This document shows, in pieces, positions 37,945 through 56,108 of a DNA stretch of 64,000 nt. Positions within the stretch are counted from its first letter, which is position 1; every line of letters starts with the position of its first letter. The stretch comes from Rhizobiales bacterium PAR1 (GTDB lineage: Bacteria; Pseudomonadota; Alphaproteobacteria; Rhizobiales; Beijerinckiaceae): contig NKIW01000006.1 in assembly GCA_002256205.1 (NCBI GenBank), forward strand, positions 62,001 to 126,000, given 5' to 3'. Below the pieces are notes generated by a model. The model worked only from the letters and a program-made list of their open reading frames with translations, ran no database searches and was not told the origin of the DNA. Made by a program: the position numbers and the translations under genes.

Positions 37945-38362
37945 ATTATAATAACATCATTAGTCATTGATATATTTGTATTTATTATTATAATTGAAAT
38001 ACTCATGACTAAAATAGTATTTTAGAAATTCGATAGCATCTTCCCAGTTATCGAATTTGTTTAAATTCACTATTCTTTCAATAAATTCATAAATATTCTT
38101 TGGTTCATATTTTTCAACAATAAATCTTTGTGACAAAAACGAGCCTTTTATAATTGAATGAAGCCGTAATAAGCTTGTTACGGTCAAATAAAACAGCATT
38201 GTTTCGTTGGTACCATCGAGACCAATTTCAATGTCGACACAAAATTCGAAATCTCTTTCATTTTCCGGAGACCACTCATCCAACGAACGAAAGCCTACTT
38301 CTATGTCGTGGATGAGAAGCTGCTTTTCCATTAATCGACCTCGTAGGCTCATATCATTTAGG
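37945..38362. other. AT-rich island between coaA and the adenosine kinase gene
   Basis: Composition changes sharply at the coaA stop (37944) and returns to normal at the adenosine kinase stop (38363). Most of the segment is A/T (for example TTTATTATTATAATTG), unlike anything else in the window. It contains one minus-strand gene. No tRNA, direct repeat or integrase is visible at its edges. Confidence 0.8.
37960..38331 (-). CDS. Imm8-like immunity protein (orphan, AT-rich)
   Basis: 123 aa from the ATG at 38331, which has GAGG seven bases upstream; an ATG at 38352 lacks a ribosome site. The layout resembles Imm8 immunity proteins: W-S-P then acidic residues and FEFCVDIEIGLDGTNE, a FYLTVTS strand, FIVEKYEPKNIYEFIERIV, then NWEDAIEFLKYYF and EYFNY at the end. 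Imm8 proteins protect against polymorphic toxins; no toxin gene is adjacent. Codon use (ATT, TTT, AAT, AAA rich) is foreign to this genome, indicating recent acquisition. The family call is from pattern recall and is tentative; the existence of the gene is well supported. Confidence 0.6.
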   Translation of the reverse strand: MEKQLLIHDIEVGFRSLDEWSPENERDFEFCVDIEIGLDGTNETMLFYLTVTSLLRLHSIIKGSFLSQRFIVEKYEPKNIYEFIERIVNLNKFDNWEDAIEFLKYYFSHEYFNYNNKYKYIND

Positions 38363-45650: not shown

Positions 45651-46277
45651 TCACGCCATCAGATACCCGAGATCTCGCAAGGCATGAAGCACGGGGGTCA
45701 ACGGCAGACCGAGAATGGTCGAATGATCGCCTTCGATGTCCTCGAAGAGATGGGCGCCCAGCGCTTCGAGTTGATAACCACCGACGGTCTCGCAAATCGT
45801 CGGCCCCATTTTGTCGAGATAGGCTTCAAGGAAGGCATCGGAGAAAGGGCGCATGGTCAATGCCGCAGAGGAAACACCGGACCAGAGAACGGTGTCTCCT
45901 TGCCGGAGCACGACTGCGGAATGCAAATAATGGGTTTTACCGCGCAGGCACACAAGTTGCCGGCGGGCGTGATCACGGTCCACCGGCTTCATCATGAGGC
46001 TCCCGGCGTGATCAAGCGTCTGATCGGCGGCGAGAAGCGGCCGATCGGGTGCTTTTCGCGAAGCCGCCTCAGCTTTGGCATGCGCAAGCGCGATGGCAAT
46101 CTCACGCGGTGGCGTGCGCTCCTCCAGCAGGGTCGCCGCGATAGCCTTTTCATCGACCGATGCCTTGAGAACTTCAACCGGAAGTCCCGCACTTTCGAGA
46201 AGGGCGCGGCGCGTCACGCTGCCCGAAGCGAGAAGCAACGGCTTTGGCGCCATCCAGAAAGGCGGGAGGCTCGTCAT
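45651..46277 (-). CDS. maf: Maf/YceF/YhdE family nucleoside triphosphate pyrophosphatase
   Basis: 208-aa house-cleaning NTP pyrophosphatase. It begins [20 protein letters not shown], with the catalytic region SVDEKA and [27 protein letters not shown] is the C-terminal family motif. Its start overlaps the ppsR stop by ATGA. Confidence 0.95.
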
Positions 46278-47107
46278 TGTGCGAGAAGGCCGAGGCGGTG
46301 GGTGCGGTAGAGATCAATGATCGCTGCCGCGGTTTCCTCGATCGAGCGCCGTGTCACATCGATCACCGGCCAGTTGTAGCGATCGAAAAGGCGACGCGCC
46401 TGGGCAATTTCCTCCGTCACGGCCTGACGATCGATGTAGGTTGAATCCTTGTTTTCGGCGTTGAGCGCGAGAAGGCGGTTCTGGCGGATCTGAACGATAC
46501 GCTCTGGCGACGCCACCAGTCCGATCACCAAAGGCTTGGTGAGCTGATCCATGTTGGGCGGCAGAGGCACATTCGGAACTAGCGGCACATTCGCGGTCTT
46601 GATGCCACGATTGGCGAGGTAAATGCTCGTCGGAGTCTTGGAGGTTCGGCTCACACCAACCAGCACCACATCGGCCTGATCGAGATTTTCTGTCATCTGG
46701 CCGTCATCGTGGATCATGGTGAAGTTCAGCGCGTCGATCCGGCGGAAATATTCCGCGTTCAGCACATGCTGCGCGCCCGCCTTGGGCGTCGTTGCGACGC
46801 CGAGATAGGATTGGAACATGTTATGGACAGGTTCGAGCACTGAAAGGCTGGGGCAACCCTGCTCCTCGCAGGAGAGTTTCAGCCGATCCGCCAAAGTCTG
46901 GTCGACCATCGTGTAGAGAACAATACCGGGCTCGTTCTCGATTTCGGTGATCACCCGGTCGAGCTGACGCGCTGTTCGCACCAGAGGATAGACGTGTTCG
47001 ATCGGGGAAATCCCGGAATAGAGCGCGGTTGCCGCGCGTGCGACGGTAATCAATGTCTCGCCGGTCGAGTCCGAGACGAGGTGAAGATGGAAGAAATTAC
47101 GGCCCAT
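46274..47107 (-). CDS. ppsR: Pyruvate, phosphate dikinase regulatory protein (kinase/pyrophosphorylase, DUF299)
   Basis: 277-aa bifunctional regulator that phosphorylates or dephosphorylates PPDK or PEP synthase. It begins [22 protein letters not shown]; the P-loop-like [21 protein letters not shown] is diagnostic. It is the first gene leftward of the candidate origin; the orthologous position next to hemE is the origin in Caulobacter and is predicted for other alphaproteobacteria. Confidence 0.95.
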
Positions 47108-47516
47108 GATATTCCGATCTCACGAATTTTCCTCTTTTCGCAGTTTTCAACCGGTTTGCCCACAGGGCTGTGATCAAGTTTGGACAACACCCCGATATTC
47201 CCGGTCTGAGGCCTGATTTTGCCGATGGGCAGACGAGGGGTGTGGAAAAGACCGTCTTTTGCCCACAGACCAGCGAGCGGGAAAGACAGGCTGTGAAAAA
47301 CGGGAATAACGGGCATGATTCGGATATGAAACGAATCCGAACATCCGAAATTTATGACAAATCAATTTGATAGCGCGGGAAATTTCGCTATCTGGCGGGC
47401 GTATCAAGTCCGGTGTTTGTGTGAGGTGCTGGGGAAAGCCAGCGAATTTCACAAACCCGTGGTCTAGAAGAAAACGAAAAAAGAAAGAATCCTCTTTTCT
47501 TTAATTTGGAGCCTGC
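47108..47516. other. Candidate chromosomal replication origin (oriC, Cori-type)
   Basis: 409-bp non-coding gap between divergent ppsR and hemE, the location of the Caulobacter origin. DnaA-box-like nonamers: TTTTCCACA on the minus strand (47241-47249; one mismatch to TTATCCACA), TTGCCCACA at 47156-47164 and 47259-47267 (two mismatches each) and TTTTTCACA on the minus strand (47292-47300). Inverted repeats: TTCGGAT/ATCCGAA (47319-47341, with a further ATCCGAA at 47343) and GATAGCG/CGCTATC (47369-47392) beside a more AT-rich stretch (47341-47370). GANTC methylation sites lie at 47317, 47333 and 47487. Genes on both sides point away, and parS and parAB lie within 9 kb. Confidence 0.75.
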
Positions 47517-48542
47517 ATGTCCGCCAAGCCCTTCCTTGATGTCTTTCATGCAGCACCCGCCGAAAGATCTCCGATCTGGATGATGCGGCAAGCCGGACGT
47601 TATCTGGCCGAATATCGCGCCATCCGGGCGAAAGCCGCGAGCTTTCTCGATTTCTGCTACACACCGGAACTAGCGATCGAGGCGACGCTTCAACCGATCC
47701 GCCGGTTCGGCTTTGATGCGGCGATTATCTTTTCGGATATTCTCGTCATTCCCGATGCTCTTGGGCAAGGCGTGCGTTTTGTCGAGGGTGAGGGACCACG
47801 GCTCGACGTGCTTGAAGATCGCATGGCGATTGAGAACCTTGCTTCCCGTCTTGATCTTGAACGGCTGGCACCGGTCTATGCGGCCTTGCGCGGCGTCCGG
47901 GCTATGCTGCCCGCCGAGACCGCGCTAATTGGCTTCTGTGGGGCTCCCTGGACCTTGGCGACCTATATGATCGGCGGGCGAGGTACGCCGGACCAGGCAC
48001 CCGCTCGCCAGTTCGCCTATCGCGACCCTGAGGCGTTTTCGCTTCTGATCAACAGGCTTGTCGAAGCTTGTATCGAGCACCTGATCTTGCAGATCGAAGC
48101 GGGTGCTGAAGCGGTTCAGATTTTTGACTCCTGGGCTGGCAATCTGCCGGAAGCAGAGTTTCTGCGCTGGAGCCAGGAGTCGATTGCGCGTATTATCGCC
48201 GGCGTGAGGGCGAAATATCCCGATGTGCCGGTGATCGCCTTCCCACGTGGCATTTCCGGTGGCTTTGCGCGTTTTGTGCAAGCTACCAAGGCCGATGCGA
48301 TCAGCCTTGATACGGCAACCTTTCTTGCTGAAGCCCGCGCTTCGCTGCCTGCCAAGGTGGTTACGCAAGGCAATCTCGATCCGCTCGTGCTGATCGCGGG
48401 TGGTGATGCTCTTGATCGGGCGATCGATGACATTCTCGAAGCAACCCAAGGTACCCGACATATTTTCAATCTGGGTCACGGCATTCTGCCACAAACCCCG
48501 ATTGCTCATGTCGAGCGTCTGATCGAGAAGGTGCGCGGATGA
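47517..48542 (+). CDS. hemE: Uroporphyrinogen decarboxylase
   Basis: 341-aa haem-biosynthesis enzyme. The signature ERSPIWMMRQAGRYLAEY is near the N-terminus, followed by IIFSDILVIPDALG, IGFCGAPWTLATYMIGG and FPRGISGG. GGAG lies 5 bp before the ATG. It directly flanks the candidate origin. The stop overlaps the next gene, another haem enzyme, by ATGA. Confidence 0.96.
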   Translation: MSAKPFLDVFHAAPAERSPIWMMRQAGRYLAEYRAIRAKAASFLDFCYTPELAIEATLQPIRRFGFDAAIIFSDILVIPDALGQGVRFVEGEGPRLDVLEDRMAIENLASRLDLERLAPVYAALRGVRAMLPAETALIGFCGAPWTLATYMIGGRGTPDQAPARQFAYRDPEAFSLLINRLVEACIEHLILQIEAGAEAVQIFDSWAGNLPEAEFLRWSQESIARIIAGVRAKYPDVPVIAFPRGISGGFARFVQATKADAISLDTATFLAEARASLPAKVVTQGNLDPLVLIAGGDALDRAIDDILEATQGTRHIFNLGHGILPQTPIAHVERLIEKVRG

Positions 48543-48964
48543 TCGATCTCTGGATCAAGGCGCTACATGTTGTCGCGGTGATCTCCTGGATGGCGGGGCT
48601 GCTCTATCTGCCACGTCTCTTTGTTTATCACGCGAGTGAACCTGTCGGTTCCGAGACCAGCGAACGATTCAAGGTGATGGAGCGAAAATTGTTTCGTTTC
48701 ATCATGCGGCCGGCCATGACCGTTTCCTGGATTGCGGGCCTGTGGCTTTCCTGGTCAAGTTTTGGTTTCAAGGGCGGCTGGCTTCATGCCAAACTGGCTC
48801 TTGTGGTGCTCCTGACGGTCCATCATGTCTTTCAGGGCGGCTGGCTTAGGGAATTTGCGGAAGATCAACGTCAACGCAGCCATCGCTTCTATCGTTTCCA
48901 GAACGAGGTGCCGACCTTGCTGATGATTGGCATTGTCATTTTCGTCATCGTCAAGCCGTTCTGA
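48539..48964 (+). CDS. hemJ: Protoporphyrinogen IX oxidase HemJ (UPF0093)
   Basis: 141-aa four-helix membrane protein: IKALHVVAVISWMAGLLYLPRLFVYHA, MRPAMTVSWIAGLWL, HAKLALVVLLTVHHVFQGGWL, and a C-terminal helix. The conserved His in ALHVVAVISWMAG is the presumed haem ligand. It oxidises protoporphyrinogen IX and is co-translated with hemE. Confidence 0.92.
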   Translation: MIDLWIKALHVVAVISWMAGLLYLPRLFVYHASEPVGSETSERFKVMERKLFRFIMRPAMTVSWIAGLWLSWSSFGFKGGWLHAKLALVVLLTVHHVFQGGWLREFAEDQRQRSHRFYRFQNEVPTLLMIGIVIFVIVKPF

Positions 48965-51795: not shown

Positions 51796-51811
51796 TGTTT
51801 CACGTGAAACA
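51796..51811. promoter_or_regulatory. parS centromere site 1
   Basis: TGTTTCACGTGAAACA, identical over 16 bases to the bacterial chromosomal parS consensus. It lies between mnmE and mnmG. ParB (55209-56108) is expected to bind here and load onto flanking DNA. Confidence 0.95.
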
Positions 51812-53698: not shown

Positions 53699-54314
53699 AG
53701 CAGCGCCGAACAGGCCTTCACCAAGTAATCTCGGTGTTTCACGTGAAACATTCGAGCGACTGGAGGCCTATGTCGCGCTCCTGCTGCAATGGCAAGGGCA
53801 CATCAATCTGATCGCGCCTTCAACCATTCCCGAGATCTGGACCCGACATATACAAGATTCCGTGCAGCTCCATCGGTTGAAGCCCGAGGCCCGACTTTGG
53901 GTGGATCTGGGTTCGGGCGGAGGATTGCCGGGTCTTGTCTTGGCGTCGATCCTGGTCGAAACGCCGGGCAGTGCCATTCACCTCGTCGAGAGCAATGGCA
54001 AAAAGGCGTCCTTTCTCCGGCATGTTGCCACCGAACTTCAATTGCCGGCGATTGTTCATTCTCAGCGGATCGAAGATGCGATTCCTGCTTTGCCGACCCC
54101 CGATGTCGTGACAGCCAGAGCCCTTTCGTCCCTTACCGACCTGATTGGCTATTCCAATCTCCTGTTGAAAAGCGGTGCTGTCGGGCTCTTTCCGAAGGGG
54201 CGAGACGCAGGAGAGGAATTGACCGAGGCCCAAAAAAGCTGGCACTTCACATATGCGCTTCATGAAAGCACGACTGACGCAGCGGCAAAAATTGTCGAAC
54301 TGCGTCTGACGTAG
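53685..54314 (+). CDS. rsmG: 16S rRNA (guanine-527-N7)-methyltransferase RsmG (GidB)
   Basis: 209-aa SAM methyltransferase. The SAM motif is [16 protein letters not shown], with [12 protein letters not shown] following. ATG at 53685 lies in the mnmG 3' end with AAAGG upstream. Codons about 17-22 (GVSRETF) are spelled by a perfect parS site, so the coding and centromere functions share the sequence. Confidence 0.94.
53735..53750. promoter_or_regulatory. parS centromere site 2 (inside rsmG)
   Basis: Second perfect TGTTTCACGTGAAACA, 1939 bp from site 1 and within the rsmG reading frame. The flanking bases (GG before, TT after) also agree with site 1. Confidence 0.95.
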
Positions 54315-54393: not shown

Positions 54394-55194
54394 ATGGCGC
54401 CGCGAGTTCTAACCATTGCCAACCAAAAGGGCGGGGTGGGCAAGACGACGACCGCGATCAACCTGGGCACAGCGCTTGCCGCGATCGGCGAACGGGTTCT
54501 TCTTGTTGATCTCGATCCTCAAGGGAATGCCTCGACGGGCCTGGGCGTTGAGATGCGTGCACGCAAGCTCTCAACCTACGACGTTCTTCTTGGCGACGCG
54601 GCCATTGCCGATGCTGCTGTTCCGACGGATGTTCCCCGCGTCTCGATTGTGCCGGCGACGATGGATCTTCTCGGCGCGGAAATTACGCTCGCGGCTCAGA
54701 AGGACCGGACACACCGGCTGAAGAACGCCATTCTTGCGATGACCGATGCGCAAGGCAACTCGCCTTATACCTATGTTCTGATTGATTGCCCGCCCTCCCT
54801 CAATCTGCTGACGATCAACGCGATGGCTGCGGCGGATGGTGTGCTGGTTCCGCTTCAGTGTGAATTCTTTGCACTTGAAGGATTGAGCCAACTCCTCAAG
54901 ACGGTTGAGCAGGTTCGCGCTGGCGTGAATCCGGACCTTGAGATCCATGGTGTCGTCCTGACGATGTTCGATCCGCGGAACAATCTCGCCAATCAAGTCA
55001 TCCGGGATGTGCGCCAGTTTCTGGGCCCAAAAGTCTTCGAGACCGTTATTCCGCGGAATGTACGCGTTTCGGAGGCGCCGTCGTACGGTAAGCCAGTACT
55101 GCTTTATGATCTCAAGTGTGCGGGCAGTCAGGCTTATCTCAAGCTGGCATCCGAGATTATCCAGCGCGAGCGCTTGCTTCAGGCAGCTGAATAA
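54394..55194 (+). CDS. parA: Chromosome partitioning protein ParA
   Basis: 266-aa deviant Walker ATPase. KGGVGKTTTAINLG carries the signature Lys of the ParA class; the switch DLDPQGNASTGLG and IDCPPSLNLLT follow. It drives origin segregation with ParB-parS. 79 bp downstream of rsmG and 14 bp before parB. Confidence 0.97.
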   Translation: MAPRVLTIANQKGGVGKTTTAINLGTALAAIGERVLLVDLDPQGNASTGLGVEMRARKLSTYDVLLGDAAIADAAVPTDVPRVSIVPATMDLLGAEITLAAQKDRTHRLKNAILAMTDAQGNSPYTYVLIDCPPSLNLLTINAMAAADGVLVPLQCEFFALEGLSQLLKTVEQVRAGVNPDLEIHGVVLTMFDPRNNLANQVIRDVRQFLGPKVFETVIPRNVRVSEAPSYGKPVLLYDLKCAGSQAYLKLASEIIQRERLLQAAE

Positions 55195-55208: not shown

Positions 55209-56108
55209 ATGGCTGAAGAAAATCCAAGGATGCGCCTCGGGCGCGGCCTCGCTGCCCTTCTGGGGGACGTCGGGAACGAGGAGGCAGCGGAGAACCGCAA
55301 CCGTGCGCAACGGCGCGTGCCGATTGAATTTCTGCGTGCCAATCCGCTGAATCCGCGTCAGACTTTTCCGGAAGCCGAACTTGAGGAACTCACGGCTTCG
55401 ATTCGAGAACGTGACATTATTCAGCCGATTATCGTTCGCGGTGTTACTGGTGTCGCTGATGCCTTCGAAATCATTGCCGGTGAGCGACGCTGGCGCGCGG
55501 CGCAGCGTGCTGGCCTCCGGGACGTTCCGGTCGTTATTGTCGAAGCTGACGATAGGCAAGCGCTCGAATTCGCAATCATCGAAAATATTCAGCGTGCCGA
55601 CCTCAACCCGCTCGATGAAGCGCGTGGCTATGAAAACCTTGTCGCACAGTTCGGGTATACCCAGAACGACCTTGCGAAGGTGATGGGCAAGAGCCGGAGC
55701 CATGTCGCCAATACTCTGAGGCTTTCGCGTTTACCAGATGGGGTCAAGGAGAAGGTGGCCGCCGGTGCTCTGTCGGCGGGCCATGCACGCGCTTTGCTCG
55801 CGGTGTCCGATCCGGACCTTGTGGCACGCCGGGTTGTTGATCAGGGCCTCACGGTTCGTGATGTCGAACGGATTGCTCAACGCGAAGCGGAAGCCCCTGA
55901 TGAGGCCTTGGCGAAGCCGAAGAAGCCCGCGATCAGGGATGCGGACACGATTGCGCTTGAGCGCCGGCTGTCTGAGATTCTTGGCTTGGAAGTCTCCGTC
56001 GAACACAAGGGCGACAAGGGTGGCACGGTCCGGATCAAATATCGGACACTGGAGCAGCTTGAAGCCTTGAGCCATCAACTCGCGCAGGCTGGCTCAACGG
56101 CGGCGTGA
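55209..56108 (+). CDS. parB: Chromosome partitioning protein ParB
   Basis: 299-aa CTP-dependent DNA clamp. The N-terminal ParA-interacting segment LGRGLAALLGD is typical; the CTP-binding ParB boxes are NPLNPRQTF and GERRWRAAQRAGL, the helix-turn-helix is around YTQNDLAKVMGKSRSHVANTLRL, and the C-terminal dimer domain ends the protein. AAAGGGGAGG is its ribosome site. Its last 15 bp overlap the convergent holA 3' end. Confidence 0.97.
   Translation: MAEENPRMRLGRGLAALLGDVGNEEAAENRNRAQRRVPIEFLRANPLNPRQTFPEAELEELTASIRERDIIQPIIVRGVTGVADAFEIIAGERRWRAAQRAGLRDVPVVIVEADDRQALEFAIIENIQRADLNPLDEARGYENLVAQFGYTQNDLAKVMGKSRSHVANTLRLSRLPDGVKEKVAAGALSAGHARALLAVSDPDLVARRVVDQGLTVRDVERIAQREAEAPDEALAKPKKPAIRDADTIALERRLSEILGLEVSVEHKGDKGGTVRIKYRTLEQLEALSHQLAQAGSTAA

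Follow-up and report, generated by a model that had tools for sequence, protein, structure and literature searches.

The chromosome of this alphaproteobacterium very probably has its replication origin in the 409-bp gap between ppsR and hemE at positions 47108-47516, this being the explanation that best accounts, as a whole, for what can be read from its DNA. The locus is well supported as an ordinary hemE-linked origin, and the new detail is a GANTC palindrome anchored to the gap. Four lines of evidence agree on the origin reading: the place of the gap, the GC skew, the segregation genes and sites, and conservation. An origin had been proposed here in the preliminary description, and the proposal is upheld by flanks like those of the Caulobacter origin Cori, by a cluster of DnaA boxes, by the skew of contig C23 and of a related chromosome (G041), and by parS and parAB. 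The features of a hemE-linked origin were found together: a gap between hemE and a COG1806 gene, boxes above background, a higher AT content, a sign change of the skew and an IHF consensus. The window, i.e. the whole stretch of 64,000 nucleotides that was analysed, covers positions 62001-126000 of contig C23 (318,246 bp) in a draft genome of 4.2 Mb and 25 contigs; coordinates refer to the window unless a contig is named.

As previously described, the gap is 409 bp long and its neighbours point outward, with ppsR to the left (46274-47107, minus strand) and hemE to the right (47517-48542, plus strand). The latter encodes uroporphyrinogen decarboxylase (TIGR01464, 390.8 bits, above the cut-off; PF01208) and is directly followed by hemJ (UPF0093; 48539-48964, plus strand; PF03653, E 1e-55). 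The gene ppsR, a counterpart of the Cori-flanking gene, is matched by NCBIfam PRK05339 above the cut-off and by Pfam PF03618 (Kinase-PPPase, E 5e-91), a family that we take to be the same as DUF299. DUF299 is contained in COG1806 (PMC1914354). The dnaA gene is located on contig C21, not on C23. Separately, a 149-aa open frame of genome G000 (C18:50326-50478) matches the C-terminal, DNA-binding domain of DnaA with 38 bits, and a normal dnaA is also present there. Elsewhere in the window, where GC is lower, an ORF of 130 aa (37960-38352, minus strand) matches Imm8, a polymorphic-toxin immunity protein (Pfam E 2e-11). Outside the window, about 30-40 kb to the right of the origin, GC falls to 48% at 140-150 kb of C23; this stretch, which carries a second DNA methyltransferase gene (L207), is possibly a mobile island.

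Four DnaA-box-like nonamers had been reported in the gap. The cluster stands, and the count has to be raised to five when up to two mismatches to TTATCCACA are allowed, against a mean of 0.97 in 1000 dinucleotide shuffles of the gap, none of which reached five. Windows of 409 bp with at least five such nonamers make up 0.1% of C23 and all overlap the gap; the maximum on the contig is six, the sixth nonamer falling within the ppsR reading frame. Box 1, TTGCCCACA (47156-47164, plus strand), is replaced by TTCTCCACA or TTGTCCACA at the same columns in many congeners. It is followed by TTGTCCAAA (47179-47187, minus strand, two mismatches), by TTTTCCACA (47241-47249, minus strand, one mismatch; TGTGGRAA-like in many congeners), by a second TTGCCCACA (47259-47267, plus strand), with which TTCACA, TCCACA or TCCCCA is aligned in many congeners, and by TTTTTCACA (47292-47300, minus strand, two mismatches). 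Box strength is therefore low, four of the five nonamers having two mismatches. Our genus alignment comprised 15 species, namely that of the window and 14 of 16 congeners, the other two having no HemE match at the threshold. Its first aligned block consists of box 1 and its right neighbour (TTCTCCACAGGGCTGTTGTCAAG in several species); the others are TGTGGRAA, a TTCACA/TCCACA/CCCACA box followed in many by GCGGGA, a GGGGATAA-like block, a TGTGGAT/TGTGGAC box and a purine/pyrimidine palindrome at hemE. Compared with its relatives, the window often has weaker versions of these elements, with TTGCCCACA as box 1 and, at 47428-47438, GCTGGGGAAAG as the degenerate counterpart of the TGTGGAT/TGTGGAC box in the alignment. 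The spacer between the boxes and hemE cannot be aligned within the genus.

The CtrA sites of a Caulobacter-type, CtrA-controlled origin were not found: the gap holds no TTAA-N7-TTAA consensus within one mismatch and a single match at two. Likewise, TGATCCACA, which we take to be the G-box sequence, has no match in the gap within one mismatch. The AT-richer character that had been noted was readily confirmed, the gap having 47.9% GC and 52.1% AT vs 61.0% GC and 39.0% AT in the window. Among 40-mers sampled every 20 bp, the AT-richest (47468-47507, 78% AT) is a candidate unwinding stretch. The sole match in the gap to the IHF consensus WATCAN5WTR (PMC1914354) is AATCAATTTGATA at 47360-47372 on the plus strand. 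A search of 46800-47800 against Rfam gave no family at the gathering score, and the hemE-proximal 107-nt strand, folded as DNA, folds better than its own shuffles (z -2.6).

Mean GC skew on C23 is -0.004 to the left of the gap and +0.030 to its right. The preliminary description had expected the skew minimum at the gap; on C23 the cumulative minimum does fall nearby, at 95.1 kb of the contig vs 109.3 kb for the gap, i.e. 14 kb to the left, but contig C21, which carries dnaA, shows a weak skew with several sign changes. One of these, where negative skew at 293-333 kb gives way to positive skew farther on, lies 50-60 kb from dnaA. For the genome itself, these values come from 15 pieces of C21 and from C23 except for 2 kb. 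In G041, a single-contig chromosome of 4.24 Mb from the same family, of which 20 stretches of 20 kb were sampled, hemE is located at 703.8 kb; the stretch before it (683-703 kb) has a skew of -0.012 and the one after it (705-725 kb) a skew of +0.027. Skew is positive in every stretch sampled from there up to 2.72 Mb and negative in the remaining ten, so that the return switch, at 2.7-3.0 Mb, is near the antipode (2.82 Mb). In G003, from the same genus, the stretches immediately left of hemE are negative and the three to its right positive; farther to the left, both signs occur.

The suggestion that parS and parAB lie near the origin also holds. Two exact parS sites, TGTTTCACGTGAAACA at 51796-51811 (with two mismatches allowed, 0.03 would be expected) and another at 53735-53750, are the only exact ones in the whole draft, and together with parAB they are located 4-9 kb from the gap. 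The parB gene (55209-56108, plus strand) is matched by TIGR00180 with 179.8 bits, above the cut-off. Upstream of it, a parA-like gene (54394-55194, plus strand) encodes a partition ATPase of the ParA/MinD superfamily, for which the 25 listed of 29 matches are all below the curated cut-offs. A published origin prediction in Oligotropha is based on four 'DnaA boxes' of sequence tgtttcacg (PMC3091675). This is the left nonamer of the palindromic parS TGTTTCACGTGAAACA, and two parS read on both strands would yield four such boxes.

The arrangement is conserved well beyond the genus. Our order sample, drawn evenly, contained 111 genomes, of which 18 had no ppsR match and three (G332, G339, G380) were left out of the other 93; among the 90 analysed, 85 have the ppsR-gap-hemE layout, with gaps of 361-629 bp. 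Boxes with up to two mismatches average 5.4 per gap vs 1.1 after shuffling. A second set, picked by HemE similarity and thus heavy in Rhizobiaceae, holds 94 distinct gaps having both genes. In two members of a genus of the same family (G101 and G170; genus g49), ppsR and hemE are on separate contigs (L224, L225, L138, L139), and neither gene has beside it a cluster of boxes with one mismatch or none (one box in L138, none in L224, L225 and L139); the origin may have moved in these two genomes. G319 carries two distinct hemE-like genes (L028, L229), one at the ppsR origin gap and the other elsewhere.

The preliminary description had also singled out two inverted repeats as possible binding sites for something new. 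Both are present, TTCGGAT N9 ATCCGAA at 47319-47341 (with a third half-site at 47343-47349) and GATAGCG N10 CGCTATC at 47369-47392, and each occurs once in the genome. Exact 7+7 repeats whose loops measure 3-10 bp number three in the gap, vs a shuffle mean of 0.31 (P 0.024 for at least three). Yet in none of the 14 congener gaps was either inverted repeat found as an exact 7+7 repeat with a 3-10-bp loop, and the region is unalignable, which argues against the proposed binding sites and rules out the two repeats as conserved features. Allowing N5-13 between the arms, the first was seen in 7 of 21 genomes and the second in 3 of 21, the genome of the window included in both counts. Matches in congeners lie on contigs other than those with the origin gaps, and two matches come from the same order (G026 and G028), with no ppsR or hemE match in the 3 kb around that of G026. 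Judged from the letters of these genomes, the two repeats may be due to chance or be lineage-specific. The three GANTC sites that had been pointed out do exist, at 47317, 47333 and 47487, but so many are to be expected by chance (shuffles average 2.3, P 0.40). Two of them form a pair 16 bp apart at the first inverted repeat, starting 2 bp ahead of its left arm; as a conserved feature, this pair finds no support in the genus alignment.

The situation is different for the GANTC at 47487. It lies within the third 7+7 repeat, not listed in the preliminary description, which is the conserved purine/pyrimidine palindrome AAAGAAAGAATCCTCTTTTCTTT at 47480-47502; a 7+7 repeat is present at the same place in 7 of 14 congeners. 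After exclusion of the 193-bp gap L036 from the second set, GANTC occurs within 100 bp of hemE in 83 of 93 gaps, vs 27.6 in shuffles (maximum 39). Its density in these gaps is 17.5 per kb at the hemE end vs 5.8 per kb elsewhere, and it is the most frequent there of the 16 palindromic N-centred 5-mers. In 54 loci of the second set, each spanning 12 kb or more, the hemE end has 18.2 sites per kb and the ppsR side 2.0, vs 4.0 per kb in front of the 361 other genes called in these same loci. The order sample gives the same picture: 67 of 85 gaps have GANTC no farther than 100 bp from hemE, vs 24.7 in shuffles (maximum 37), or 59 of 74 once similar tails are collapsed. It is missing from this interval in the other 18 of 85, and no GANTC was found there in two loci labelled Rhodospirillales (L060, L061). 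The hemE-proximal 160 bp also lack GANTC in congeners L121 and L122, the latter still having the palindrome, with GGTTC at the place of GANTC.

Loci in which hemE has left the gap help to see what the cluster follows. In eight gaps, representing few lineages (three from the order sample and five picked for a detached hemE), hemJ stands in place of hemE. All eight hold one to five GANTC at 280-435 bp from ppsR, 24 in total, vs 3.5 of 8 gaps and 4.5 sites (largest 11) in 500 shuffles; among hemE-linked gaps, 69 of 85 have a site in this interval. The hemJ-linked gaps also have two to seven boxes with up to two mismatches, vs 0.4-1.7 expected. Conversely, 20 hemE loci have no detected ppsR. Two were set aside because the upstream part is missing (L012, L134), as were three origin-like ones with five or six boxes upstream (L017, L041, L053) and one with two boxes (L075). 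This left 14 loci, 13 of them distinct (L011 and L136 represent a single stretch) and L138 having one box. GANTC occurs within 100 bp of hemE in 2 of the 14, which is about the rate of other genes (106/361). This suggests that the cluster is no property of hemE itself; it tracks the gap, since hemJ-linked gaps keep their sites and detached hemE genes mostly lack them. The 280-435-bp interval taken alone is nevertheless unspecific and weak evidence, since six of seven ppsR loci with neither hemE nor hemJ beside them also have GANTC there (two each in L218, L226 and L272, whose contig ends after 378 bp; one each in L223, L225 and L297; none in L224).

The hemE-proximal GANTC could still be a promoter element of the rightward genes (hemE-hemJ and beyond), regulated by CcrM and GcrA and having no role in initiation, and we are inclined to think, with modest confidence, that this is so. 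The sites lie mostly 20-80 bp ahead of the first gene, and since they stay in the gap where hemE leaves and hemJ follows, what they mark may be the operon and not the origin. The genome encodes gcrA and a ccrM-like gene; the latter scores 593 bits with NF050803, below the model cut-off of 830, has a RAMA domain above the cut-off and, by our reading, a mutY-like neighbour. In G344, a complete genome of the hemJ class, the gap keeps its GANTC sites, and 20 sampled stretches show no skew switch there, the skew turning positive only between 2.0 and 2.7 Mb. On the other hand, the eight hemJ-linked gaps hold the distance of the sites from ppsR, and just four of the eight have one within 100 bp of hemJ. 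In addition, operon and origin are not separated in this class, since the boxes are retained and the two exact parS of G344 are found 4 kb away from its gap, hemE being about 1.9 Mb off round the circle. In Caulobacter, a promoter of the origin region is itself reported to be essential for chromosome replication (PMC4287350), and a non-coding RNA, CcnA, is transcribed from that origin (PMC8959179).

Alternatively, the palindrome could be an origin element within the unwinding stretch, its methylation state modulating opening or re-firing. This we hold to be unlikely, even though the palindrome falls in the stretch of highest AT content among those sampled in the gap, 54 of 85 order-sample gaps have the centre of their AT-richest 40-mer no more than 110 bp from hemE, and the position of GANTC relative to ppsR is kept. 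Besides the gaps without a hemE-proximal GANTC noted above (18 of 85, and L060 and L061), experiments in two species argue against it. The Caulobacter origin has several GANTC motifs, and CcrM was found not to be required for initiation control; the same paper also mentions that extra chromosomes accumulate in cells over-expressing CcrM (PMC3973325). At Agrobacterium ori1, depletion or excess of CcrM had no significant effect (PMC11514494). These results also speak for the promoter element and make it unlikely that CcrM methylation times initiation, which had been suggested as a possibility. Methylation that regulates transcription at the edge of the origin is more economical. Quite improbable in our view is a more novel scheme: a conserved GANTC cluster at the AT-rich end of Hyphomicrobiales origins, keeping its distance from ppsR, would become hemi-methylated on firing, switch transcription across the unwinding stretch via CcrM/GcrA and be kept after hemE moves. 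If true, a methylation read-out of firing would be built into the origin itself.

That the gap is an ordinary divergent promoter region of ppsR and hemE, with the true origin elsewhere, e.g. at dnaA, is highly improbable: both genes must have promoters, box strength is low and dnaA is on another contig with weak skew sign changes of its own, but this is the sole box cluster of such size on C23, the skew minimum is nearby and G041 switches at hemE, parS is close by and the layout is conserved order-wide. The same points that trouble the origin reading were met above, namely a skew minimum 14 kb off, a left-side skew near zero, the sign changes on C21, weak boxes, the degenerate counterpart of the congeners' TGTGGAT box and the lack of a CtrA consensus.

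At a hemE-linked origin of this kind, DnaA would bind cooperatively to the weak boxes on the ppsR side (47156-47300) and would open AT-rich DNA on the hemE side, at about 47340-47370 and/or 47468-47507, possibly with the use of IHF. Two forks would depart from the gap, and ParB bound to the two parS 4-6 kb away would segregate the new origins. The GANTC palindrome at the hemE end would then be a CcrM-methylated element that sets hemE-hemJ transcription rather than a timer of firing. In the open literature searched, we found no account of a conserved GANTC cluster at the hemE end for bacteria other than Caulobacter; PMC7987155 does not use the terms hemE, Cori or origin of replication, and the part of PMC3885167 that was available has nothing on GANTC in Cori. 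Since global changes of CcrM are reported to be without effect on DnaA-dependent initiation in two species, the GANTC cluster at the origin end offers a concrete site for asking what CcrM methylation does at alphaproteobacterial origins. The probable origin is placed for this genus, its conserved parts being the box cluster, the layout and the GANTC palindrome, and its unconserved ones the inverted repeats of the spacer.

Among known systems, Sinorhizobium oriC and Agrobacterium ori1 are hemE-linked as well. The latter is DnaA-dependent (PMC11514494). With regard to Hyphomicrobiales hemE-linked origins in general, the layout of PAR1 is common to 85 of 90 order-sample gaps, and its two inverted repeats are absent from the congener gaps. 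Both Caulobacter Cori and the Rickettsia origin lie between hemE and COG1806 (PMC1914354). The origin of Rickettsia prowazekii (hemE/RP001) has the same flanking pair and is similar in length (384 bp), but it is much AT-richer (82.6%; PMC1914354). Unlike Cori, the PAR1 gap is without a TTAA-N7-TTAA CtrA site and without TGATCCACA at up to one mismatch. In other respects the Caulobacter crescentus origin (hemE/CC0001, i.e. COG1806) is close to that of PAR1: the flanking gene pair is the same, the lengths are 404 bp (PMC1914354, Table 1) and 409 bp, the boxes of Cori, known as G- and W-boxes, are also weak as a rule (PMC4468827), and both regions combine weak DnaA boxes with an IHF site, an AT-rich region and several GANTC.
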